Source: Acaryochloris sp. CRU_2_0 (lineage in GTDB: Bacteria > Cyanobacteriota > Cyanobacteriia > Thermosynechococcales > Thermosynechococcaceae). From it: a stretch of 64,000 nt of DNA. This document shows positions 28,664-51,859 of the stretch, in pieces; position 1 is the first letter of the stretch, and the number at the start of each line of letters is the position of its first letter. The position numbers and the translations under genes were made by a program. The stretch lies in assembly GCA_012034865.1 (NCBI GenBank), contig JAAUOM010000002.1:1-64000 (forward strand), given 5' to 3'. The notes beneath the pieces were generated by a model, which did not search any database, had not been told where the DNA came from, and saw only the letters and a program-made list of their open reading frames with translations.

Positions 28664-29872
28664 TCAGCGCAAAAGTAAGCGAATCGGTCGGATCAAATAA
28701 TATAAAAAATATAAATAATGTGGCAGAGGAATAAATTCTTTATCTTTAATATTGGGAACTAGTTTTAGGAAAAATTGAAGTATTGGGCGATGAAGATCCC
28801 ATAGGCAACCTAACTTATTTTTTGTTTTTTCAATCATCCTTAAGTGCAGGAAAAATTTCTCTGAGGTAAACTGTGTACTTAAAAGGTTATCACGCCAAAA
28901 TAATCGCTTAGAGAATTCATTAGCAAGGTATCGACTTTCTGGGTGTGCTGCGATCCTTTTAGACACAGCTAAGGGGAGCTTTACATCTAAGAACTCATGG
29001 GCTAGAAGCAAACCTAATAAAAGCATTCTCTCGCACCCTAAGTTTCTAGATTCTTGTAATAAATTTTCCCAGTTAATTGTTGGATGTTGCTGGATACATT
29101 CAGCAACATCACAAATCCATTTCAGACTTCTCCAACATTCTTTAGAGCCATGAATGCAAAGGTACATTAGTAAATCTTCTGTACCAAAACTGTAGAGAGT
29201 ATGTCCAGAAATTGATATTAATTGACGACGTTCCCATAGGAAATCCAAGGTAAAACTAGAAGATAGAAAACGTTCTACAGTTAGATCTTGATGCAGATCG
29301 ATGGAAACAATTCCATTTGTAAAGGAATACTCACTTTTAGATCGGCGTAGCGCCAGTTCAAAATCTCTATTCAGAAAGTTCCACTCATAAGCAGGGTGAT
29401 ATCCTGTATCAGTCAGCAAATCAAACGCTTTCATAAAATCCTGTTTGCAAACTAGGATATCTAAATCACAAAAATGACGAAGTCCTAAATTTTGATAGGC
29501 TGATATAGCTAGAACAGGGCCTTTGAAAGAAATTGCACGAATATCATACTTCTTGAACAAAAAGAGGAGTTTCAGCAATTCTCTTAAGAAGAGTGTATTT
29601 TTTAATGCAATGTTATGAGCATAATTTTTAAGTTGTTGCTGAATGTTATTTGGAATAGCTTCAAAATCAATCAATTTTAGATTGTGATAGAGCAGAGGGA
29701 GAACACCATGAGCAATTGCAGTTTCAATTAAATATGACCAATCAAGGCCTTGTCCTAAATTTTTTTGTATCTGTTGCGTAGTTTCAGAATCTACATAAGT
29801 TCTTGCACAATAAAGAATTAACTTTATTTCTGGAGAAAAATCATTTTTTTTCAATTTTGTTATTTGATTCAT
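28664..29872 (-). CDS. Nucleotidyltransferase-family protein (NTP_transf_5-like)
   Basis: 402 residues. YDIRAISFKGPVLAISAYQN, LGLRHFCDLDILVCKQDFMK and SIDLHQDLTVE form the core of the uncharacterised nucleotidyltransferase family PF14907; the DLDILV pair would be the metal-binding Asp residues. LMYLCIHGSKECWRSLKWIC is another family motif. It often occurs in polysaccharide loci and in RiPP/lasso clusters of cyanobacteria and proteobacteria. Here it is in the exopolysaccharide operon, 16 kb from the lasso genes. Substrate unknown. Confidence 0.78.
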   Translation of the reverse strand: MNQITKLKKNDFSPEIKLILYCARTYVDSETTQQIQKNLGQGLDWSYLIETAIAHGVLPLLYHNLKLIDFEAIPNNIQQQLKNYAHNIALKNTLFLRELLKLLFLFKKYDIRAISFKGPVLAISAYQNLGLRHFCDLDILVCKQDFMKAFDLLTDTGYHPAYEWNFLNRDFELALRRSKSEYSFTNGIVSIDLHQDLTVERFLSSSFTLDFLWERRQLISISGHTLYSFGTEDLLMYLCIHGSKECWRSLKWICDVAECIQQHPTINWENLLQESRNLGCERMLLLGLLLAHEFLDVKLPLAVSKRIAAHPESRYLANEFSKRLFWRDNLLSTQFTSEKFFLHLRMIEKTKNKLGCLWDLHRPILQFFLKLVPNIKDKEFIPLPHYLYFLYYLIRPIRLLLR

Positions 29873-37350: not shown

Positions 37351-39291
37351 TCATTGTAGCGATTCTCCTTGAACACATTTTTTCCACCATAGAGCAAGGG
37401 ACATCATTCGCCACAGATATAAGGGATTGTTATAGGCCAGATGCTCATAGCTCTCTGAACTCAGTTGTTGCCAATTTAGGTAGGGACAGTCTAGTGATCC
37501 AATAGCATAGCAAAAGCGCGATTTTGAGGTTAAAAGCCATTGAGTATATGGAAAAGGAAACCCAGCTTTTACTTTACGCCAAGCCACTTCAGGCGGCAAG
37601 ATATCTTTCATCCCTTGTCGGAGAATCCACTTCATCCAACCTTGCCTAACTAAATAGCTAATAGGCAAGCTGAAGGCAAAATCAACAATTCGATAGTCCA
37701 AAAAAGGAAATCTTAACTCTATCGGAATTCCCATGGCTGATTTATTGGAAGATCGCATCCAGTAATTCATACGCCAGTCACCCATGTTATCGATTAGTCG
37801 TTGGTGTAGATCGGAGGATGCTCCTAGTCTGTCGATATGCTGAGGAACAATAAACGGATCAAGAGAGGGGGATGCATTGATTTGAGGTCTTTTGAGGATC
37901 TGTAGGTTCTGAGGCAATAATCGATAGGCTTGGCTAGCATAGCCTAGACCGAATTTCTTAGAACGAGCTTCACTATATAGCAAAAATTCTCGGATGAAGG
38001 GTAGAAGAGATCCTTGACGCAGGAGCATTTGTAGATAAAGGGAGTGGTACTCTCCGGCATAACCAGCAAGCACTTCGTCTCCTGCTCCACCATGAAGGCT
38101 CACCCGAATGCCCTTATCTGCCATTTCTCGCCAGATACTCTGGTGAGTTAGCAGGTTGGGGGAATGGAAGGGTTCTTCGATGAGTTCGATATACTGATCT
38201 GCCTGGGTAAATAGGTCATTGGGGGGAGGGACAAAAACATTATAGTGAAGGCGATCTTGGTAATATTCAGCGACTTTTCGAGCAAAGGATTCTTCATCTG
38301 CTTCAGTCCCCGGGAAAGAAACGGTAAAAGTTTCAATGGGATTGCCACTATGGGCTGCAATAGCAGAGATCGAAGAAGAGTCCATACCACCACTAAGTTC
38401 AACGCCAACGGGAACATCTGCTCGTAAACGGATGCTCACTGCGTCTGTCAGTAAATGTCTGAGTTTTTGAATAGCCTCTGTTGGGCAGATATCTCGTTCT
38501 CGAAGTCTTTGGTTGGAAAGCTGCCAGAAACTTTGAGGATGATAGCTCCCATCCTCTTGAATCCAAGCATAGGAGGCTCTGGGAAAAGTGACAATTCCTT
38601 CATAGAAGGTGGTATCAAAAAGGTCACGCCAACTGTACTGAACAAAGTCAAAGACCGATTGATCACAAATGGAGAAAGCAGAGGAACCAAGGGCAGCAAA
38701 AATTCCCTTAATTTCAGAAGACCAGAATAAACCTTTTGCAGTTTGAGCGATGTAAAGGGGGGAAACACCGATGCGATCGCGCGCCAACAGCACTGCATTT
38801 TTGCGGGTATCGTACAAACTTAAAGCCCAAAACCCATTGAAATGTTGGAAACAATCCGTGCCCCACTCTAGGTAAGCTTCTACCAAAACTTCTGTATCAG
38901 AGTCAGTATAGAAAGTGTGACCCAGGGATTTCAGTTTTTGTCTCAGTTCAACATAATTATAAATTTCACCATTGAAGACCACACAAACTTGACAATCCTT
39001 TGACCAGAATGGCTGATGCCCAGAAGGTGAAATATCAACAATGGAAAAACGGCGATGGCCAAAAGCAATGCGATGGGGAACTGAACCCACTTTAGAGATA
39101 GCTTGGAGGCCAAGCACTCCCTGAGCAGTGTGTGTTGTCGCCAAATTAGTAATGTTTGAGCCTTTGCCAGAGAAAAGAGTTAAACCCTCATCATCAGGTC
39201 CTCGAAATGCAATAGCCCTCGTCATTTGCAAAATCTTCTCTGCTGATATTTCCAGGTGATCAGCTAGAAAATAACCTGAGATTCCACACAT
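37351..39291 (-). CDS. asnB: Asparagine synthase-like glutamine amidotransferase of exopolysaccharide locus
   Basis: 646 residues. It starts MCGISGYF with the catalytic Cys2 of the Ntn glutaminase, and has AFRGPDDEG, FNGEIYNYVELRQ and the ATP-pyrophosphatase loop ELSGGMDSSSISAIA. Both active centres are therefore intact, unlike the lasso cyclase at 48154. AsnB-like proteins are common in exopolysaccharide loci, where they amidate uronic acids or other carboxylates; genuine Asn synthesis is also possible. Confidence 0.85.
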   Translation of the reverse strand: MCGISGYFLADHLEISAEKILQMTRAIAFRGPDDEGLTLFSGKGSNITNLATTHTAQGVLGLQAISKVGSVPHRIAFGHRRFSIVDISPSGHQPFWSKDCQVCVVFNGEIYNYVELRQKLKSLGHTFYTDSDTEVLVEAYLEWGTDCFQHFNGFWALSLYDTRKNAVLLARDRIGVSPLYIAQTAKGLFWSSEIKGIFAALGSSAFSICDQSVFDFVQYSWRDLFDTTFYEGIVTFPRASYAWIQEDGSYHPQSFWQLSNQRLRERDICPTEAIQKLRHLLTDAVSIRLRADVPVGVELSGGMDSSSISAIAAHSGNPIETFTVSFPGTEADEESFARKVAEYYQDRLHYNVFVPPPNDLFTQADQYIELIEEPFHSPNLLTHQSIWREMADKGIRVSLHGGAGDEVLAGYAGEYHSLYLQMLLRQGSLLPFIREFLLYSEARSKKFGLGYASQAYRLLPQNLQILKRPQINASPSLDPFIVPQHIDRLGASSDLHQRLIDNMGDWRMNYWMRSSNKSAMGIPIELRFPFLDYRIVDFAFSLPISYLVRQGWMKWILRQGMKDILPPEVAWRKVKAGFPFPYTQWLLTSKSRFCYAIGSLDCPYLNWQQLSSESYEHLAYNNPLYLWRMMSLALWWKKCVQGESLQ

Positions 39292-40905: not shown

Positions 40906-43203
40906 CTATGCCTTCAGGTAGGAATAGCTTTTATGGGTTTGGTTAACACCATTAGCCACCAAACCAATCACATTTAACTTTTCATGGGCAGAGATTGCCT
41001 TGGATAGATCGACGCGGGTGACTTGCTTCATGCGACCCACCATTACCACACCATCGCAGCCTAAGCCGATGGGAATGGAGTCAACAACACCCAAGACTGG
41101 GGGACTATCGATCAAGATCAAGTCGTAACTATCCTCAAAAGCCTTAACCACCTCCCGCAGGCGTTCTAGACTGAGTAACTTAACGGGATCGGCTGATAGG
41201 GGTCCGGCAGTTAACACATCAATACTCAAATCAGATGGGGGTAAGGTTTCTTGGTCTAGATCGGATTCATCCCAGCGCATATAAACCCATTGGGGGGTAG
41301 ATTGTAACTCTGCTAGGCTTATATCTCCCATTAAGAGTGTAGATAATCCTTTATGGTTATTGAGGTTAAACATATGATGTAAGCTAGGCTTCCGCAAATC
41401 CGCATCAATCACCAGCACTCGCTGATCAAGACGAGCGGCACTAATGGCGAGACCCAAAGCTAGGGTAGATTTGCCTTCCCCAGGACCGGCTGAGGTAATC
41501 ATCAAGGTTTTGTAGGGATGGTTGTTTTGCAAGAGTTGAATGTTGGTATAAATCAAATCCAACGCCTCTCGCAGGGGCTGCCATTGGAAGAGTTCAGGTG
41601 TAGTTAAGCTGGAATGGTGGGTAGAGCTAAAAAGGACAAGAGACTCCTTGAGATCAGTGACAGATAGTTCAGGAATCGCCCCCAACAAAGGTAAGGGGAA
41701 CTGGTGACTCAGATCATCGGAGGTATGGAATTTATCATCCATTGCATCTCGAACAAAAGCAGCAATAGCTCCTAGGAATAAGCCAACTACTGCTCCTAGT
41801 AATAAATTGCGTTTGACGTTGGGACTAATCTGCACCCCAAGTTGTGGGGCTTCTACCACTTGCCAGTCAAACCCCCCACGGGCAATTTCTAAACCTAGTT
41901 CTTGACGGGCTTCTAAGAGCTTTTGTAGGGTTTGCCGACGGGTGGATACCTCTGGTTGCAATCGATTGAACTGAGCCATGAGTTCTGGATATTTTTTCAG
42001 CTCAGCCGTTAATTTCGCTTCTGTTTGCGCGAGGCTGAGATCCCTAGCTTTGAGACTTCCCAAGGTTTTCTGCAATTCAGTCAACTGACTGACCAGGGTT
42101 AAGTCGTTTTTCCCCAGTTGACCCACATTGAGTTGATCAGTACTATTCGGCAATGACCCAGCCTCCGCACCTACCACCCGACGGACTTCTTGTTGTAACA
42201 AGGTCAACTGATCCTGGCGTTCATTGAGCAAATTGACAATATCAGGGTGATCACGGGTTAAGGTTTGCCTTTTTTGGGCTAGCTGCAATTCTGTTTGCTG
42301 AATTTGATTTAACAGCGCTTGATATCGAGAAGATTCGCTCAGACGGGCTGATGTGCGTGCTTGACTGGGGGATAACTGAATTTGATGCTGCACACTGGTG
42401 TAACTAGCATAGGCTTCACGGTATTGGGCATCTAACGCCTGACGTTCCGTTTTAATGCGCTCTAGAGCCGCTGCTGCCGCTTGGGCTTGGGTTTCGGGGT
42501 CAATGACGCTACTACCACTGCGAAAGACTTTAAGGGCGGCTTCTGCTTCTAAAACACTTCTGCGCACCTCTGGTAATTGCTCATCAATGAAGGCCAAGCC
42601 CTTGGACAGACGGAGCTTTTGTTGTTCCAGATTATAGAGCTGATAGACAGACAATATAGTTCGTAAGATGTGTTCGGCTTTTTCTGGACTTGAGCTGATA
42701 TATTCAGCTGCTAAAACCTTGGTCGCTACCCTACCTTTACCGGTATGATCGGGACCATAGACAGGACTAAAGGATAAAGAGAGCCGCAATTCCTTGAGGG
42801 TAAGGTCAGGATAGTCTGGTTTTAACCGTTCTACCACCCTTAATAGAGCTTCAGAGCCTGTTAAAACTTGTAATTGAGTGGTTAGGTCAACTTGAACATT
42901 AGAATCTGCGAAGCGATCTTCTGGTGCTTCGGATCCTGTCTGATTACTAGGCTTGGATTGATAATTGGATTCAACCAAAATCTGCATGGAACTCTGGTAG
43001 ACAGGTTGAGTGATTAAAGTCAAGAAAATAGCGCCTGCTAGGGTACCTACAAACGTGCCCATAAACCAAAATTTCCGACGAATCAAGATGGAGAGCAGTT
43101 GTCCATAGCCCCATTCTTTTTCCAAGCTTTGGGCAATTAAAGCGTCTTGCTTAGCGAGTTGATTAGAGTGAGTAGAGACTTTATATAAAGAGTTTTCATT
43201 CAC
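40906..43203 (-). CDS. Polysaccharide co-polymerase/tyrosine autokinase (Wzc/BY-kinase type)
   Basis: 765 residues. An N-terminal Wzz-like domain with TM1 at about 42-60, long coiled coils (200-430, with SGSSVIDPETQAQAAAAALE and QLAQKRQTLTRDHPDIVNLL), TM2 near 465-485, then a BY-kinase domain: Walker A with Lys578 (SAGPGEGKSTLALG), Walker A' VLVIDADLRKPSLHHMF and Walker B YDLILIDSPPVLGVVDS. The C-terminus has only a short Tyr tail (KSYSYLKA). It controls chain length and export. Confidence 0.92.
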   Translation of the reverse strand: MNENSLYKVSTHSNQLAKQDALIAQSLEKEWGYGQLLSILIRRKFWFMGTFVGTLAGAIFLTLITQPVYQSSMQILVESNYQSKPSNQTGSEAPEDRFADSNVQVDLTTQLQVLTGSEALLRVVERLKPDYPDLTLKELRLSLSFSPVYGPDHTGKGRVATKVLAAEYISSSPEKAEHILRTILSVYQLYNLEQQKLRLSKGLAFIDEQLPEVRRSVLEAEAALKVFRSGSSVIDPETQAQAAAAALERIKTERQALDAQYREAYASYTSVQHQIQLSPSQARTSARLSESSRYQALLNQIQQTELQLAQKRQTLTRDHPDIVNLLNERQDQLTLLQQEVRRVVGAEAGSLPNSTDQLNVGQLGKNDLTLVSQLTELQKTLGSLKARDLSLAQTEAKLTAELKKYPELMAQFNRLQPEVSTRRQTLQKLLEARQELGLEIARGGFDWQVVEAPQLGVQISPNVKRNLLLGAVVGLFLGAIAAFVRDAMDDKFHTSDDLSHQFPLPLLGAIPELSVTDLKESLVLFSSTHHSSLTTPELFQWQPLREALDLIYTNIQLLQNNHPYKTLMITSAGPGEGKSTLALGLAISAARLDQRVLVIDADLRKPSLHHMFNLNNHKGLSTLLMGDISLAELQSTPQWVYMRWDESDLDQETLPPSDLSIDVLTAGPLSADPVKLLSLERLREVVKAFEDSYDLILIDSPPVLGVVDSIPIGLGCDGVVMVGRMKQVTRVDLSKAISAHEKLNVIGLVANGVNQTHKSYSYLKA

Positions 43204-43214
43204 AATTCAGTTAT

Positions 43215-44342
43215 TCAGCTAATAGAGGGAACAAAGGAGCCGGAATTACAAAGCCAAGCGGGATTAACCTGATTAATAATTTGATGAATCTTTTCAAAAA
43301 AGATAGTTTCAGAGAATTGGGATAGTGCATGATTTCTAATTAGATGATGATCCCAATGGATTTGTTGCGATCGCAACAGTGCCACCTCTAAAGCACTCAC
43401 TGTTTGTTGATGAAAGAAGACACTGGTCTTATCAGGAATTTGGGTATCGAGGATGCCTCCTACCCCGTAAGAGATCACAGGTGTACCACTGGCATTGGCT
43501 TCTATCGGCACTAAACCATAATCTTCCAGCGCGGCAACGACCACACCCCTGGCTTTGGCCATTAAATGACAGCGTTCTGCATCCGAGACGTAACCCAAAA
43601 ATTGAGTATTCGATAAGGCTCGGCTTTCCAAGTTCTTTCGTTCTGGCCCTTCTCCCATAATTTTCAATGGCCAGCCTAGCTTATTAAAGGCATCAACAAT
43701 AATATCAATTCGCTTATAACTGAGCAAACGAGAAGAGACTAAATAGTAATCTTCTTTTTGATCAGAAAAGGTAAATTGATCACTATCAATGGGGTAATTG
43801 ACGACGAGGGCTTGTTTTCTGTAGGTTCTCTGAATCCGGCGAGCAACTTCAGTAGAATTAGCGATGTACAAGTCTGGCTCTTGTGCATAGGCTAAATCAG
43901 CCTTCCTCATCATTTTGAACATTTTCTCAATAAAGGGATATAAATGCTGGTAGTCCGCATATTCGCGCAGGTAGGTTTGGGTATCCCAGAGAAAACGGGT
44001 GACATTGTGGCAAAAGCAAATATGTTTGGCATCCGGCCTTTTCCGGACAGCCTTGGCAAAACTGGTACTGCTGCTAATAATCAGATCATACTTCTGCAAA
44101 TTGAGAGACCTGAAGGCTGGGTAATAAAAAGGTGCCAGCAATCTAAAATACTTTGTTGCCCCTGGTATTTGCTGTAGCACTGTCGTATGCACAAGGCGAT
44201 CGCCCAGCTCAATCGTCCGTTGTGGATCGTACAAGGATGTAAAAATATCAGCATGGGGAAAGCGACGACACAACAACTCAAATACTCGCTCAGCGCCTCC
44301 TCGTTGGGTAAGATAGTCATGAACTAGAGCGATTTTTATCAT
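43215..44342 (-). CDS. GT4-type glycosyltransferase, probably first gene of the locus
   Basis: 375 residues. MIKIALVHDYLTQRGGAERV then CFCHNVTRFLWDTQTYLREY, IANSTEVARRIQR, DYYLVSSRLLSYKRIDIIVD, NTQFLGYVSDAERCHLMAKA and EDYGLVPIEANASGTPVISY are typical of the cyanobacterial GT4 group found beside Wzc. It starts 587 bases away from the lasso ABC exporter and lies 12 bases upstream of the tyrosine autokinase gene. Confidence 0.9.
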   Translation of the reverse strand: MIKIALVHDYLTQRGGAERVFELLCRRFPHADIFTSLYDPQRTIELGDRLVHTTVLQQIPGATKYFRLLAPFYYPAFRSLNLQKYDLIISSSTSFAKAVRKRPDAKHICFCHNVTRFLWDTQTYLREYADYQHLYPFIEKMFKMMRKADLAYAQEPDLYIANSTEVARRIQRTYRKQALVVNYPIDSDQFTFSDQKEDYYLVSSRLLSYKRIDIIVDAFNKLGWPLKIMGEGPERKNLESRALSNTQFLGYVSDAERCHLMAKARGVVVAALEDYGLVPIEANASGTPVISYGVGGILDTQIPDKTSVFFHQQTVSALEVALLRSQQIHWDHHLIRNHALSQFSETIFFEKIHQIINQVNPAWLCNSGSFVPSIS

Positions 44343-44929: not shown

Positions 44930-46747
44930 CTAGCGATAATTCTGTGCTTGAGTCTCGAACATGAATGCATAGACGCCATTAATAGCCATTAAATCGTCAT
45001 GTCTGCCTTCTTCAACCACCCTACCTTGAGACATCACATAGATATAATCAGCCATTTTTACCGTGGATAACCGATGACTGATCAAAATGGCCGATTGGTG
45101 TTGAATCAGTTGCCGAAACTGCTGAAACACTTCATACTCAGCCTTAGGATCCATGGCACTGGTTGGCTCATCAAGAACAATCATCTGGGAGTCCCGCAGA
45201 AACGCTCGTGCCAAGGCAATCTTTTGCCACTGGCCAATGCTCAGTTCTTCCCCTGCATCAAACAACTTACCCAGAACTGTATCGTAGCCTTTGGGTAAAG
45301 TTCTAATCACCTGATCTGCGCCAGATAAGCGGGCAGCGGCAATGACGCGATCATCTTCAAGGGGTAAATCCACATTGCCTAACCAAATATTTTCTTTGGC
45401 AGTAAAATAATATTTGGCATAGTCTTGAAAAATGACACTGACTTGACGGCGTAAATCTGCGATCGCAAACTCTCGTAAATCAATCCCATCTAGCGTGATC
45501 GAACCATACGTCGGATCGTATAACCGACAGAGCAGTTTAATCAGCGTCGTCTTCCCAGAGCCATTTTCACCCACCAAGGCAATCACCTCCCCTGGTCGAA
45601 CCCTCAAAGTGATATTCTCTAGAGCCTGACGGTTGGTGGTGCCATATTGAAAACTCACCTGATTAAACACAATCCCCTTTGTCCAGGGCAGTGGCAGAGG
45701 CCGAAGATGGATCGGATCCAGCACCTTTGGTTGCAAATCGAGGAACTCATACAAATTGACTAAGAAAAGATTATCTTCGTATAAACCCGATCCGCCTTGC
45801 ATCAGATTTTTAAGGTTCGTCTGTCCTCGTTGCAGGGCCTGAGAGTAGAGAACCAGATCTCCTATCTGTAAACGACCTTGAATCGTTTGATAAACAATAA
45901 ACGCAAAAATAGCCAAAACAACCAGCCCTGCGCCCGCTTCAGTGCCAAAATACAAAAAAGATCGGTTCTTTAAAATTTGCACCGTTTCTTGATAGAGCTG
46001 CTGCCGGATACCCAAATACCGTTTGCTAAACAATGAACCTAAATTGAACAGCCGAATTTCTTTAGCACACTCATCCGTCGTCAGCATCCACCCCAAATAC
46101 ATACTTTGCCGCTGCATCTGAGTTCGCCGACGTTGCCACTGATACATCGTTTGCGAATAGCGAATTTTAACGATAACAGGTGGAATTGCCGTCACCAGTA
46201 AAACCCCTAAAATACCCCAGTGCAAAGCAACCAATAAGCCCAGCATCGCCACTAGGGAAATGCCATTTTGTCCGACCTGTGCCAAGCGATCTAGAATCCG
46301 AGGGGGGCGAAAAGGGGCTTCTTGTTGGGCACGCTGCAACAAATCATGATATTGGGGATTTTCATAATGTTCTAAATCAGCCGCGATCGCCTTAGCATGA
46401 ATAATTCCCTGCATATAATCGGTCACACGTTGGGCATGGGCTTGATTGACTAGCTCTGCTAAAGATGTAAACGAGGTAGTTAAAATGGCGACAATCCCCG
46501 ATAGGATTAGCAGCGGCACACAGTTTTGAAAAGCAGCCGCTTTATTCACTACCGTCACACTTACCGCAACCGCATCAATGATCAGTTTAGTCAGATAAAT
46601 CCCAGCAACAGGCAGAATTCCTTGGGCAATGACTAACGCCACCCTAGCAGTGGTCCAACCTGGACTACTGTCCCAAACCAGCCGAAGGGCGGGTAAAAAG
46701 TGGATATTTTGGGCAACCCTCCGCTTTAATTTGTTGGCCAATCCCAT
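44930..46747 (-). CDS. Lasso peptide exporter, ABC transporter with fused permease/ATPase
   Basis: 605 residues. An N-terminal six-helix ABC permease domain, then an ATPase: Walker A VGENGSGKTT with Lys399, signature ELSIGQWQKIALARAFLRD (LSIGQ in place of LSGGQ) and Walker B MIVLDEPTSAMD. No N-terminal C39 peptidase domain, so it exports an already processed peptide; the leader is removed by the B2 protease encoded at 50816-51277. Such D-type exporters give both secretion and immunity in lasso systems. Last gene of the operon, 42 bases after the kinase. Confidence 0.88.
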   Translation of the reverse strand: MGLANKLKRRVAQNIHFLPALRLVWDSSPGWTTARVALVIAQGILPVAGIYLTKLIIDAVAVSVTVVNKAAAFQNCVPLLILSGIVAILTTSFTSLAELVNQAHAQRVTDYMQGIIHAKAIAADLEHYENPQYHDLLQRAQQEAPFRPPRILDRLAQVGQNGISLVAMLGLLVALHWGILGVLLVTAIPPVIVKIRYSQTMYQWQRRRTQMQRQSMYLGWMLTTDECAKEIRLFNLGSLFSKRYLGIRQQLYQETVQILKNRSFLYFGTEAGAGLVVLAIFAFIVYQTIQGRLQIGDLVLYSQALQRGQTNLKNLMQGGSGLYEDNLFLVNLYEFLDLQPKVLDPIHLRPLPLPWTKGIVFNQVSFQYGTTNRQALENITLRVRPGEVIALVGENGSGKTTLIKLLCRLYDPTYGSITLDGIDLREFAIADLRRQVSVIFQDYAKYYFTAKENIWLGNVDLPLEDDRVIAAARLSGADQVIRTLPKGYDTVLGKLFDAGEELSIGQWQKIALARAFLRDSQMIVLDEPTSAMDPKAEYEVFQQFRQLIQHQSAILISHRLSTVKMADYIYVMSQGRVVEEGRHDDLMAINGVYAFMFETQAQNYR

Positions 46748-46767
46748 GGAACCTGCTTATCCCACAT

Positions 46768-46797
46768 TTCATAATCACAATGTTCATAATCACAATG
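46768..46797. repeat. 15-bp tandem duplication at kinase/exporter junction
   Basis: TTCATAATCACAATG occurs twice head to tail (46768-46782 and 46783-46797). The duplication lies across the stop codon of the kinase gene and the ribosome-binding region of the ABC exporter, so it may change their spacing. It is probably a simple slippage product. Confidence 0.8.
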
Positions 46798-47701
46798 TAG
46801 AAGGCTGCAAATGACTTTCCACTAATTGCGCCATGTCCGCCACTAATTCTAAGTGATGCGGACGCTCTAACCGATACAAAGGAACATGACGAATCACCGC
46901 CATGCATTGCTGGAAATGCACCCCTCCAGGTTGACCTTGGAGCAATTGGGGACTCCCTTGGGCAAAGTAGGTATGGGTAATCAATTGTTTAATTGCCTCT
47001 TGTAGACCCAGGGGCTGAGCTGCAACCACTGACCCCTTCGCCAATTGGTACACCCCTTTGAGGGGTAGAGAATCTTGGGCAAATCGTTCAATATTGCGAC
47101 GCGATCGTTTTTCATAACCTCTGGCCAGCGTTGGCAAAGTGTCAGGATGATCCCCCAAGGCAAATACTGCCGCTTCCGGCAACAGTTTAAGCTGAGGAAA
47201 ACCAGGGATAATTCTGGGCGGCTCTTCAGCCTTAAGATCCACCAGCACCAGATCATCCGCCACTAAATGGTGCCCACGTCCATAGAGGGTTGCGGCCAAG
47301 GTCGACTTTCCCCAACCCTTCCCAGCAATAAATGCAGCCACACCACCGTTAATAGCCACAGCACTGCCATGCAACACCAAAAATCCCCGTTGATGCAGAA
47401 TAACTGCCAGCAAAATTCCTAAAATGGGCAAGTGGAGTAGACGCTCTTCCACATTTGGCTCCGGATCCAGGATGATTTCTTGGCCATCACGCACCGAAAA
47501 AGCACCCACATCCTCCCAAAAACAAGAAACTTCGTGGGCACCGATGTAACGAGACATTCCTAAATTGATCTGGGAGAACCGAGAACGATCCACCACTCCA
47601 AAGCGAATGACCACATCAGGCGGTGATTCATCAATGGCAATGAGTTCTGGGAAGTGCAAGACAGAACTTAAATTCAGACCATAGGCTCGATAAAAATACA
47701 T
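46790..47701 (-). CDS. HPr-kinase-like protein, probable lasso-peptide tailoring kinase
   Basis: 303 residues. The N-terminal region (MYFYRAYGLNLSSVLHFPEL, then VVIRFGVVD) is typical of the HprK-like proteins in RiPP clusters. LVLHGSAVAINGGVAAFIAG followed by KGWGKSTLAATL is the P-loop (residues 126-134), and LVADDLVLVD (Asp149/Asp150) is the second metal/nucleotide motif. In paeninodin-type lasso clusters such kinases phosphorylate a C-terminal Ser of the precursor. The precursor here has Ser42 as its penultimate residue. The gene follows the precursor, separated by a strong hairpin. Kinase activity on the peptide is an inference. Confidence 0.8.
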   Translation of the reverse strand: MYFYRAYGLNLSSVLHFPELIAIDESPPDVVIRFGVVDRSRFSQINLGMSRYIGAHEVSCFWEDVGAFSVRDGQEIILDPEPNVEERLLHLPILGILLAVILHQRGFLVLHGSAVAINGGVAAFIAGKGWGKSTLAATLYGRGHHLVADDLVLVDLKAEEPPRIIPGFPQLKLLPEAAVFALGDHPDTLPTLARGYEKRSRRNIERFAQDSLPLKGVYQLAKGSVVAAQPLGLQEAIKQLITHTYFAQGSPQLLQGQPGGVHFQQCMAVIRHVPLYRLERPHHLELVADMAQLVESHLQPSTL

Positions 47702-47771
47702 CCGTTTTATAATTCACAACTAGGTTTAGAACCGCTACAGCTTGTTTTTGCAAGACACCTCAAAAGCAAAT

Positions 47772-47798
47772 GGAGAGAAACAAGCTTTGTTTCTCTCC
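47772..47798 (-). terminator. Strong hairpin between lasso precursor and kinase genes
   Basis: A perfect 12-bp inverted repeat with a three-base loop: GGAGAGAAACAA (47772-47783), GCT, TTGTTTCTCTCC (47787-47798). On the minus strand it lies about 86 bases after the precursor stop and about 70 before the kinase start, and is followed by ATTTGCTTTTG, a weak U tract. It could be a partial terminator or an RNA-stabilising stem that keeps precursor mRNA more abundant than the downstream tailoring and export genes. Confidence 0.7.
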
Positions 47799-47883
47799 AC
47801 CCAACTCAAGCAATTGAGCAAACGATTGTCTGTAATCACACTCCCATGGCTTCTTAAAGATTAGGATTGCAGTTGCGGCTAGC

Positions 47884-48015
47884 CTATACTGAAGGGAACG
47901 CGGTATTTGGTGCGCCACGAGGCACATCGGAGTTAACTATACCCCCTTGTAGGGTAATCGTTTCAACATTGCCATGATTGGTCAGTTGTGGCCGATGATA
48001 TGTTTTTTTATCCAT
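47884..48015 (-). CDS. Lasso peptide precursor (43 residues)
   Basis: ATG 48015 with a Shine-Dalgarno AGGAG seven bases upstream; stop TAG at 47884-47886. The leader MDKKTYHRPQLTNHGNVET matches the lasso leader pattern YxxPxLxxxGxxxxxT exactly: Tyr6, Pro9, Leu11, Gly15, Thr21. With Thr21 at position -2, cleavage after Leu22 frees a core that begins Gln23 (QGGIVNSD), so Asp30 is core position 8 and can close an eight-residue macrolactam with the N-terminus. The tail is VPRGAPNTAFPSV. If cleavage were after Gln23, Gly24-Asp30 would give a seven-residue ring. Flanked by cyclase and kinase genes on the same strand. No homologue is claimed. Confidence 0.85.
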   Translation of the reverse strand: MDKKTYHRPQLTNHGNVETITLQGGIVNSDVPRGAPNTAFPSV

Positions 48016-48153
48016 AATTTTCTCCTGACACAAATATGATGTAACAATAGCTAATTTTCATCAAGATTGGCAAGTTTTTCATAAGTCTGTTAGATTTTAC
48101 GGGGGATAACAGCACTCTAGCAATCACAATTATTGGCAGACCAGCAAAAGCTT

Positions 48154-50076
48154 TCAAGGTGTTATGCCTGTGTATTGTAACCACAGCCCTAAAGAAACTG
48201 CTCTCCATACAGCATTTACCTCTGATACAGTAGCATCACCTGCCATAAAACGATGATATTTCTCCTGTAAAGCCAAAATATCTACATATTCTGCAAGAAT
48301 TTCTGGTTTTTCAAATAATACTAACTTCGTAGGATACTTATCATAGGTTTTGAAGCTATACTCAAAACCAGGATGCATATTTGCCTTATCAGGTCGCCAT
48401 TGTAATGATTTAGGTAAAATGCCGTCCATGGCGTTACGCATCACCCACCGCCCCCAACCCTGATTTAATTTCTGATGGGCGGGTAGGGCTAGGCAAAACT
48501 CTATAAGGCGTTTGTCAAAGAAAGGAAACCGCAGATCAACAGCCAATGCTCCTCCTGCTGGATCGAGCAGATCAAACATGGAAGAGTGAATATTGGCCAT
48601 CAACAATCGATAATGATTTTCTCTTTCTGTAAGCGGGGGGAGCCGTTGGAGGTTTTGCAATTTTTCTTGTAGGCCAATCCGTTGAACAAAAGCAGGTTGG
48701 AGTGGCATATCCAATAGATCGATATGGTTGGCTTCTGATGGAGGGGCATCAGGGGTCAATTTTATGGCTTTGATCGGTTGAATGAGAGGAGCGAAGGTGG
48801 GGTGAAGTCCATATCTCCATATCCAGCGCAGCAGCACTTTTGGCCAAGGTAACTGATATCGTTGGCCATAGGCTCTGGTTTCCATCGCTAGGGTCAACCA
48901 ACGACCCGCTTGCGCTAATTCTCGCAGGTATTCATTGCCGTGGGAGACAGTGGTATCGCCATCCCAGCCATCCAAAATAACCCGAACGTCATGCTGTTGG
49001 GCAATCTTATATAATCCCCAATTGAGGCGGAAATTTCCGGCCAGTAGAGCTGCATCCCGATGCCATAGAACCTTTTGATAGTCCGTCAACGGTCCTAGTT
49101 GGTCTCCTTGCAAGAGGTGGGATTCATAATTGCCCTGGGCTAAGACGGCCTCTTGGTACGCTCGTTCATCGGAAGCCAGAATCTGATCAAACCGGGCTGA
49201 GAAGGTGTGTAAAGGCTGATGGGGAGAATGCTGGTCGAGAAGCTGGCGAGCGACACACGTAATAGCTGAGGAGTCTAAACCGCCACTGAGCATGGAACCA
49301 ACCGGGAAGGCACTGCGTAAACGACATCGGACTGCCTCAGTAAAGAGTTCTAAAAACTGATCAGCATAATCTTGGTTGGAGCTGAGTTTGAGTTCTTGAG
49401 GATTGGCGTCTAGTTCCCAGTAAGGGCGCAAAGACAATCCAGCAGCATTAATGCGTAAACAATGGGCGGGGGGCAGTCGCAAGATACCTTGGTATAAGGT
49501 AATAGTTGGATCGTTATCCAGATTGGCGAGATGCTCGGCAACCCTAGCTTCATTCAGCCGTCGAGGCACTTGGGGAAGACTGAGGAGGGCTTTAATTTCA
49601 GTGGCAAAAACAAAATCATCCGCCGCGTAATAGTAATAAAAGGGCTTGACGCCAAAGGGGTCGCGTACGCAGAATAGCTGTTGCTGACGCTCATCCCAAA
49701 TAGCGAAAGAAAAATCACCCAGGAGTTGCTGGGGACAGGCTTCACCCCATTTTTCATAGGCCAATAGGATTAAATGACCATCCGAGAGTTGATCTACTGG
49801 GGCATGGGTCACTTCAAGGGTGGCAATCAGGGAGTCGCGATTATCCAAGCGGGCATCGGCGGTCAGGATTAGATCCCTTCTGGGGTTGATCAGGGGACAT
49901 TGCTCATACAAAGATTCTGGGGTTGTCCAGAGTAAACGACGACCCAGGCCAATGCAGTCTTGGCACCATGCGCCCAGGCCATCAGAGCCTCGATGGGCTA
50001 AGGTATCCAGCATTTTGCCCAGATGCTCTGGGTCGACTGGGGTATGCCACTGATAAATTCCGAGGATGGCGCTCAC
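48154..50076 (-). CDS. Lasso cyclase (asparagine synthase-like, McjC-type)
   Basis: 640 residues. The Ntn-hydrolase domain (LAHRGSDGLGAW, LLGDFSFAIWDERQQQLFCV, RDPFGVKPFYYY) is followed by the ATP-pyrophosphatase loop SGGLDSS at 264-270 and DGWDGDTTVSHG. The usual catalytic Cys2 is absent (MSAILGIYQW; residue 2 is Ser), so it cannot hydrolyse glutamine in the normal way. That fits the lasso cyclases, which adenylate the ring Asp/Glu side chain and use the core N-terminal amine as nucleophile. It is placed directly before the precursor and 85 bases after the oxygenase. Confidence 0.88.
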   Translation of the reverse strand: MSAILGIYQWHTPVDPEHLGKMLDTLAHRGSDGLGAWCQDCIGLGRRLLWTTPESLYEQCPLINPRRDLILTADARLDNRDSLIATLEVTHAPVDQLSDGHLILLAYEKWGEACPQQLLGDFSFAIWDERQQQLFCVRDPFGVKPFYYYYAADDFVFATEIKALLSLPQVPRRLNEARVAEHLANLDNDPTITLYQGILRLPPAHCLRINAAGLSLRPYWELDANPQELKLSSNQDYADQFLELFTEAVRCRLRSAFPVGSMLSGGLDSSAITCVARQLLDQHSPHQPLHTFSARFDQILASDERAYQEAVLAQGNYESHLLQGDQLGPLTDYQKVLWHRDAALLAGNFRLNWGLYKIAQQHDVRVILDGWDGDTTVSHGNEYLRELAQAGRWLTLAMETRAYGQRYQLPWPKVLLRWIWRYGLHPTFAPLIQPIKAIKLTPDAPPSEANHIDLLDMPLQPAFVQRIGLQEKLQNLQRLPPLTERENHYRLLMANIHSSMFDLLDPAGGALAVDLRFPFFDKRLIEFCLALPAHQKLNQGWGRWVMRNAMDGILPKSLQWRPDKANMHPGFEYSFKTYDKYPTKLVLFEKPEILAEYVDILALQEKYHRFMAGDATVSEVNAVWRAVSLGLWLQYTGITP

Positions 50077-50161
50077 AATGATTTGGGGCAGATTAAAAGG
50101 ACTAGATCAAAGATTTTTGGTGGGGTCGATCGCTCATTATCCCGCAGATACGTTGTCGTTT

Positions 50162-50806
50162 TCAGGTGTACCAACTGACTAGGGTATATCTTTCTCCAGC
50201 GGTTACTGCTTGGACTTCATGCCAAAGGTCGGAGCGAAAGGCAACGAGGAGACCGGGTTGTCCTGGAAAGGGAAACCCATGGGTTTGCCACTGGGATGGA
50301 TCAATGAGTCCATAGAAAACTAGAGAACCGCCACAATAGCATCTTGGCTGGGGATCTGGGGTTTGTTCATTCAAGAAAAGGATGACAGATATTTGCCGTT
50401 CCTGTAAAAAGGAAGGCGCATCGGATTGGAGAGTGCGATGACCGAAGGTCGGTCGGAGACCATCGCAATGTGCCCCAAAAAAACTGCCTTGGCTATAGCG
50501 ATAGAATAAGGGATTTTGGATCCCCGTCAACTCTAAATTGAAATGGCGGGCTAGAGTTGGTTGCAACTGACGTAATTGGGCGGTGATCCAATCCGTGGTT
50601 GTACTGGGAACTTGTAGTTGTTCTGTTTGTCGATGGTAGGGATCAACTTGAGCGGTCAGAATTTGCCGATCCTGTCTAGGCAAAACTAGCGCAGGCTGAC
50701 CGTCGGCTGTTTGGAGCTTTGTTAACAGGTCTATACAGGATCGGTGATCTAAAAAGTTAGGCTGAATAAATAAGCCCAACTGCCTAAATAAATCTAAACT
50801 CAGCAT
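50162..50806 (-). CDS. 2-oxoglutarate/Fe(II) dioxygenase, probable lasso-peptide hydroxylase
   Basis: 214 residues. A prolyl-4-hydroxylase-like fold: FFGAHCDGL gives the HxD iron ligands (His113, Asp115), LWHEVQAV the distal His196 and GERYTLVSWY the 2-oxoglutarate-binding Arg206. The whole facial triad is present. It sits between the leader peptidase and the cyclase genes with gaps of 9 and 85 bases. Such enzymes hydroxylate residues of RiPPs; candidate targets here are Asp30 or Asn28 of the ring and the Pro residues (32, 36, 41) of the tail. Target is inferred. Confidence 0.85.
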   Translation of the reverse strand: MLSLDLFRQLGLFIQPNFLDHRSCIDLLTKLQTADGQPALVLPRQDRQILTAQVDPYHRQTEQLQVPSTTTDWITAQLRQLQPTLARHFNLELTGIQNPLFYRYSQGSFFGAHCDGLRPTFGHRTLQSDAPSFLQERQISVILFLNEQTPDPQPRCYCGGSLVFYGLIDPSQWQTHGFPFPGQPGLLVAFRSDLWHEVQAVTAGERYTLVSWYT

Positions 50807-50815
50807 GATTCAGGA

Positions 50816-51277
50816 TCAGTTTAAGGCGGGCATGGGTGTAAATCGAGACAGATCTTCGACTTGGCCCATGACGACTTTGCCTTCCAATTCAACCCAGGCA
50901 TGGGCTTCTAGCTGATCTAAGGTTGTTTTGGCAACCCCAATCCGCAGTTGCGGGTCATAATTGTGACGACGCAGCAATAGCTGAGTAATTAAGGCGCGTG
51001 CCAGACATTTGACCTGACCGGGCATATAGCGACTACTAATATTGACCGCCCAAATAATCTCACCGACCTTTCTGGGGTGGGCGGGATGGGCTGGTGAGGA
51101 GGGGGTAGGGTCAGGGGACTGACCAATGTTATCCAACCCTCTCAGTAAGGTTTGAAAGGGCAACAACCATAGACCCAGCCGGATGCCGATTAGGAGTAGA
51201 AAGGTTTGGATGAGGGCGTTGCGATCGCAATTCCTTAACCGGAAAAACTTAAGTACTCGCCTCATCTTTAATCTCAA
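50816..51277 (-). CDS. Lasso leader peptidase B2 (transglutaminase-like cysteine protease)
   Basis: About 153 residues from ATG 51277; an alternative ATG at 51265 is equally possible. A hydrophobic N-terminal helix (TFLLLIGIRLGLWLLP) is followed by a Pro-rich linker and the catalytic core: Cys91 in GQVKCLARALITQLLLRRHN, His126 in LEAHAWVELEGKVVMGQ and Asp142. This is the Transglut_core3/McjB C-terminal domain, which removes the leader with help from B1. It overlaps the B1 gene end. Confidence 0.87.
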   Translation of the reverse strand: MRLKMRRVLKFFRLRNCDRNALIQTFLLLIGIRLGLWLLPFQTLLRGLDNIGQSPDPTPSSPAHPAHPRKVGEIIWAVNISSRYMPGQVKCLARALITQLLLRRHNYDPQLRIGVAKTTLDQLEAHAWVELEGKVVMGQVEDLSRFTPMPALN

Positions 51278-51551
51278 TCAATTCTGATTCAGCTAATTCT
51301 TGCAAGAGACTCAGCACATCCTGTTCGCACTGCTCTGCCGCTACCTCATACTCCTGTAAGATCGCATCACAAATATCATGGACTGAACGCGGCTCCTGAA
51401 GCAAATTCCAAATGCTTGTACCAACTTCATTTAAGCCAAAATACATCCCTGTTTTCAGGTTGAGGATAACAGACTCACCCGCTAAATCAGACGAAACTTG
51501 TTCGGGGGTAGCAACAACAGTGGTCTGTTTAGAAATTGTTGTTGTAATCAA
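51249..51551 (-). CDS. PqqD-like RiPP recognition element (lasso B1)
   Basis: About 100 residues from TTG 51551 (SD GAGAGGAGAG ten bases upstream); an upstream TTG at 51578 is possible but lies in front of the SD. VVATPEQVSSDLAGESVILN, LKTGMYFGLNEVGTSIWNLL and EYEVAAEQCEQDVLSLLQEL are standard PqqD-like/RRE features: a small winged-helix domain that binds the Tyr/Pro/Leu leader motif and hands the precursor to B2. First gene of the lasso operon. Confidence 0.87.
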   Translation of the reverse strand: MITTTISKQTTVVATPEQVSSDLAGESVILNLKTGMYFGLNEVGTSIWNLLQEPRSVHDICDAILQEYEVAAEQCEQDVLSLLQELAESELIEIKDEAST

Positions 51552-51859
51552 CGATGTAGCTCTCCTCTCAAGGGTCAATACTCAAAAACGGTCAATTTTA
51601 AACTCAATTTTTCAAAGCTAGCACAGATTTTCTCTATTCTGTACAGGGATAAAAATATCTTTTAATGCAAAATCCAAAATTCTTCCAGACATCAACCTAA
51701 AATCTCCACGGCTGCCATCAAGCGGTCTGAACAAATGGTCGCCATCCCTAGATAAAGTGATCCAGATCTCCAGGAACTTCTACCCACATCACGCCGACGA
51801 TCTAAGAAACCCCTCATACTCAATTGAGTGGGTTGGGAGATAGAAGGACGGAGTTGGTT

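Follow-up and report, generated by a model that had tools for sequence, protein, structure and literature searches.

A cyanobacterial lasso peptide operon of known type that carries both a 2OG-Fe(II) oxygenase and an HprK-like kinase

Introduction

Lasso peptide clusters in which tailoring enzymes accompany the core genes are the closest described relatives of the operon reported here, which lies on the minus strand (51578-44930) of a 64-kb stretch of Acaryochloris sp. CRU_2_0 DNA (contig JAAUOM010000002.1, positions 1 to 64,000; the whole stretch is referred to as the window). The kinases PadeK, ThcoK, SyanK and PsmK phosphorylate a C-terminal Ser, while BsfK phosphorylates an internal Ser3, helped by the B1 protein (PMC10368454). 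A His-Lys-Asp-Asp motif matters in lasso kinases (PMC9266682; for the motif of BsfK, PMC10368454). In the canucin A system, CanE hydroxylates an Asp of the linear precursor, also with the help of B1. Two tailoring genes, encoding the PsmK kinase and the PsmN nucleotidyltransferase, occur together in the pseudomycoidin cluster (PMC9266682).

The window operon has the same families as cyanobacterial lasso clusters defined by an NF033535 cyclase and an NF033528 precursor, with a split B1/B2, a kinase and an ATP-binding cassette (ABC) exporter in a layout found across cyanobacterial families. Unlike typical clusters of this kind it has a 2-oxoglutarate (2OG)-Fe(II) oxygenase between B2 and the cyclase C, and its predicted ring starts at Gln1 and has 8 residues, where 9 is commoner. 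It shares with the paeninodin-type systems (PadeK, ThcoK, SyanK, PsmK) a clustered HprK-like kinase with the His-Lys-Asp-Asp motif, but not their C-terminal Ser acceptor, as the window core ends in FPSV; its acceptor would be internal, as for BsfK. Canucin A is comparable by enzyme class, its lasso cluster too having a 2OG-Fe(II) enzyme and a separate B1; however, the target of CanE is a C-terminal Asp, whereas the window core ends in Val, and the window has a kinase too. Pseudomycoidin likewise has two tailoring genes, but the nucleotidyltransferase-like PsmN acts on the phosphorylated Ser, and the window has an oxygenase instead. In the open-licence literature we found no lasso cluster with both an oxygenase and a kinase, no lasso peptide that is both hydroxylated and phosphorylated, and no cyanobacterial characterisation, which is weak evidence of novelty.

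Results

The open reading frames and motifs of the window define seven lasso genes on one strand with operon-like spacing, all frames open, transcribed in the order B1, B2, oxygenase, cyclase C, precursor A, kinase K and exporter D (Table 1). Pfam and NCBIfam models assign all seven, the kinase match being weak, and B1 (NF033536), B2 (NF033537) and the cyclase (NF033535) each exceed the lasso-specific NCBIfam cut-offs. B2 overlaps B1 by 29 nt, and in its sequence the Cys within KCLARAL and the His within AHAWVE can be read directly. An earlier sequence-only reading had claimed a complete cyanobacterial lasso operon, and its coordinates, frames, family matches and motifs are all present in the window, which holds a real and complete lasso cluster of an already known type, the added oxygenase making it a less common variant. 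The same reading had drawn attention to a cyclase without Cys2; this is true, the protein starting MSAILG, but uninformative as relatives likewise begin MSA or MSG, and we have dropped it as a meaningful trait. The host genome comprises 4.9 Mb in 259 contigs.

Table 1. Features of the lasso operon, with window coordinates
Feature	Coordinates	Strand	Evidence
B1, PqqD-type recognition element for ribosomally synthesised and post-translationally modified peptides (RiPP recognition element, RRE; leader binding)	51249..51578	-	PF05402 83 bits; NF033536 86.6 (cut-off 80); PDB TbiB1 5v1u E 1e-14
B2, transglutaminase-like cysteine protease (leader removal)	50816..51277	-	PF13471 102 bits; NF033537 122.4 (cut-off 33)
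2OG-Fe(II) oxygenase that may hydroxylate the core; lies 9 nt past B2	50162..50806	-	PF13640 48 bits; invariant residues; AlphaFold fold match
C, lasso macrolactam cyclase, asparagine-synthetase-like, GTG start	48154..50076	-	NF033535 lass_lactam_cya 790 bits (cut-off 525); SGGLDSS ATP motif
AGGAG ribosome-binding site, 6 nt upstream of precursor ATG	48022..48026	-	sequence read directly
A, 43-aa precursor MDKKTYHRPQLTNHGNVETITL-QGGIVNSDVPRGAPNTAFPSV	47884..48015	-	leader motif; NF033528, NF033521 matches; homologues in G390, G388, G118, G437
Inverted repeat between A and K, 13 bp without mismatch, loop of 3 nt	47771..47799	-	sequence; z -2.4 for 151-nt region
K, HprK-like peptide kinase, putative precursor phosphorylation	46790..47701	-	weak PF07475, TIGR04352; invariant residues; model fold
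D, ABC exporter with membrane and ATPase domains in one protein	44930..46747	-	PF00005 111 bits; MsbA-like across most of length

The neighbours of the operon are exopolysaccharide genes, including a downstream glycosyltransferase and a Wzc-like protein that are kept in the lasso loci L045, L046 and L080, and would fit a reading in which the asparagine-synthetase-like and kinase genes serve a non-lasso RiPP or a polysaccharide pathway. We consider this very improbable given a cyclase 265 bits over the lasso-cyclase cut-off, B1 and B2 over theirs, and a precursor with a canonical leader and ring Asp.

That precursor has the YxxPxLxxxGxxxxxT leader as claimed, in the form of Y6-P9-L11-G15-T21. 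The lasso profile models are divided on it, the leader model NF033521 (L3) scoring 19.4 over a cut-off of 19 while NF033528 (lasso_cyano) scores 32.3, just under its cut-off of 33. With Thr21 placed at -2, codons 1-22 (47950-48015) form the leader and the predicted core is therefore QGGIVNSDVPRGAPNTAFPSV (codons 23-43, 47887-47949), in which Asp at position 8, within the allowed 7-9, gives a predicted macrolactam ring of 8 residues, Gln1-Asp8. Because G390, G388, G118 and G437 each have a homologous precursor as well as a homologous cyclase, this small frame goes beyond chance, and gene comparison across relatives bears out the cluster as well. The hairpin between A and K is likely an attenuator or an mRNA-stabilising element.

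Although the kinase match to PF07475 is weak (E 9e-7, under the gathering score), H111, K132, D149 and D150 are invariant across 14 homologues and supply the His-Lys-Asp-Asp motif, and the predicted structure (predicted local distance difference test, pLDDT, 89.9) resembles the PEPCK and HprK folds. A homologous kinase stands beside the cyclase in nearly all cyanobacterial NF033535-like loci, those lacking one being on truncated contigs or belonging to distant cyclases (L053, L077 and L078 among them). The presence of a kinase in the window cluster is routine, not unusual.

It is the oxygenase that is the rarer of the two and the variable module of cyanobacterial lasso clusters. Its iron and 2OG residues, H113, D115, H196 and R206, are invariant in 10 homologues, in the HxD...H...R arrangement. 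A cyclase above the NF033535 cut-off is found in 17 of 386 genomes, an even sample of the phylum, and the oxygenase profile has matches in just two of those 17, the window genome and G118. The oxygenase is present in 6 of the 7 genomes of the window's genus, to which G388 and G390 belong, and wider searches located further oxygenase lasso loci in G437, G418, G682 and G710, each with a kinase at the same locus. A Thermoleophilia metagenome-assembled genome has B1, C, K and the oxygenase in one locus (L089), where a precursor was searched for and not found. Oxygenase and kinase, a pair also found in Acaryochloris and Oscillatoriales M59_W2019_021, recur together in at least 10 clusters, and the view that two tailoring enzymes make the window exceptional is weakened for that reason. 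No lasso genes lie near the oxygenase homologues of Acidobacteriota, Planctomycetota, Eremiobacterota and f32 (same-phylum) genomes; the enzyme family is therefore not lasso-specific.

On a cyclase tree of 44 rows, scored for oxygenase presence or absence, the label changes at least four times, by gain or loss, and the oxygenase and kinase pair has therefore been assembled more than once. The window falls in a five-cluster clade (support 98/95) that is entirely oxygenase-positive and holds nine distinct precursors, and its members retain both enzymes wherever the contigs are long enough to show both. Sister Acaryochloris clusters L045, L046 and L048 hold an additional JmjC_2 (PF08007) oxygenase; L046 (10748-13955) combines a 2OG oxygenase, a kinase, the JmjC_2 oxygenase and two precursors with a 322-aa glycosyltransferase-like frame that has no Pfam match and is a possible glycosyltransferase. 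The window is thus not the most heavily equipped cluster of its kind.

To locate the modifications we compared eight distinct clade cores (one from the window, one from G388, two from G118 and four from G437), in which N6, D8, G12, T16 and A17 are the five invariant positions. All five are kept by a ninth core, that of G390 (QGTLANADVPRGTVNTAFPSA), which lies on another contig together with its kinase. As T16 is the sole Ser or Thr that is invariant in all nine cores, it was chosen as the kinase site, and we predict phosphorylation of Thr16. Phosphorylation of a C-terminal Ser was rejected for the window's clade, since the relatives end in FPSA, FPAAG or FPNV and the cores have no such residue; any phosphate on the window core would therefore be internal. 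A C-terminal Ser is present in the sister clusters L044, L045, L046 and L066, and its absence from the window's clade could mean that the cluster is an ordinary one in which one tailoring enzyme is inactive on the peptide, being a relic or acting elsewhere, so that the product is cyclised with a single modification. We think this doubtful, as the kinase has an intact frame and motif, both conserved among the clade members, the catalytic residues of the oxygenase are invariant, and both genes have been retained in those clade clusters that lie on sufficiently long contigs.

For the oxygenase, Asn6 is the lead candidate. Of the 10 oxygenase-positive clusters whose precursors are known, 6 have Asn at core position 6, against 0 of the 24 negative clusters, and the cleanest contrast comes from the sister pair L046, with the oxygenase and N6, and L045, without it and with S6. 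We rejected the idea that Asn6 accompanies the oxygenase in every cluster, as the enzyme is present without N6 in L132, L139 and L141, and probably in L080 (G389), which has an S6 precursor and is assigned to an oxygenase contig by inference only.

These exceptions count against Asn6 as the target, as does the fact that five of the six N6 clusters belong to one clade, leaving about two independent instances; the conservation of N6 and T16 may moreover be structural, with no modification, and on the kinase side a weak sequence match is joined by the absence from the core of the proven acceptor, the C-terminal Ser. The fold of the oxygenase also bears on the choice, as its AlphaFold model most resembles the prolyl-4-hydroxylases (4iw3) and PHD2 and would favour Pro as the target. 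The enzyme might then hydroxylate a proline instead of Asn6, either Pro19, which lies in the conserved TAFP tail and does not vary among the precursors of the window, G390, G388 and G118, or Pro10 or Pro14. However, in the G437 precursors, which fall in the same clade, position 19 is Cys and Pro comes at 20; core prolines are frequent whether or not a cluster has the oxygenase and hence do not track its presence; the target of CanE is an Asp; and the oxygenase model is of middling quality (mean pLDDT 72). From these comparisons we infer Asn6 as the likelier target, with Pro19 a tentative but real rival.

Model for maturation

We propose a model in which the window encodes a functional lasso cluster with two tailoring enzymes, Asn6 (or, as second choice, Pro19) being hydroxylated and Thr16 phosphorylated, and we hold it with moderate confidence. 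The sequence comparisons establish which genes are present, that their catalytic motifs are intact, which precursor positions are conserved and that the genes co-occur across the clade; the chemistry, the order of steps, the sites of modification and of cleavage, the threading and the export are proposed. B1 would bind the YxxPxL leader and present the precursor. The oxygenase would then hydroxylate the still-linear precursor, most likely at Asn6 of the ring with Pro19 as second choice, and the HprK-like kinase would phosphorylate the linear precursor, most likely at Thr16; modification of the linear form with the help of B1 is proposed because CanE and BsfK act in this way. Following modification, B2 would cut past Leu(-1), and the cyclase would use ATP to activate Asp8 and join it to the alpha-amine of Gln1, closing an 8-residue macrolactam around a presumably threaded tail, before the ABC protein exports the product. 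The window peptide is probably cyclised, hydroxylated and phosphorylated, as had been predicted from its gene content. The calculated [M+H]+ would be 2065.046 for the lasso alone, 2081.041 with one added O, 2145.012 with HPO3 and 2161.007 with both modifications.

A stricter version of the model, which we regard as speculative and rather unlikely as it stands, holds that in this peptide family a single linear, not yet threaded precursor is both beta-hydroxylated at a ring Asn and phosphorylated at a Thr in the loop or tail, with both reactions gated by the same B1. If true, these would be the first lasso peptides to combine hydroxylation and phosphorylation, and related clusters add a second (JmjC) oxygenase. 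The set formed by the window, G388, G390, G118, G437 and G387 would offer a test of whether two leader-guided enzymes share one RRE and of the order in which they act.

Neighbouring genes and related loci

The glycosyltransferase and Wzc-like genes that adjoin the lasso operon (40906-44342, minus strand) are the same neighbours as those at L045, L046 and L080, where the lasso clusters have cyclases about 45% identical to that of the window and different tailoring genes. Shared neighbours around divergent clusters suggest that lasso cassettes are exchanged at one chromosomal site. Within the exopolysaccharide region, a second asparagine-synthetase-family protein (37351-39291, minus strand) scores far under the lasso-cyclase cut-off, and an NTP_transf_5 (PF14907) protein (28664-29872, minus strand) lies 15 kb from the lasso genes. 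Paeninodin-type clusters carry nucleotidyltransferases, and the NTP_transf_5 family also occurs near the exporter in the oxygenase-plus-kinase lasso loci L139 and L141; a link between the window protein and the lasso peptide is possible.

Three further loci extend the range of associated genes. In the oxygenase-positive clade, L131 (3351-4536) has five tandem precursors with two conserved tail Cys (TAECPAGSTDPRCLS type), possibly giving a disulfide lasso. A PRMT/PrmA-like methyltransferase lies between the oxygenase and exporter of the lasso cluster of G710 (L141, 5670-6833). Finally, an oxygenase homologue in Nostoc sp. LEGE 12450 (L087, 8654-13594) has as neighbours a peptidase-containing ABC transporter and two proteins that are radical-SAM/SPASM-like and HlyD-like; this may be a different type of RiPP that employs the same hydroxylase family.

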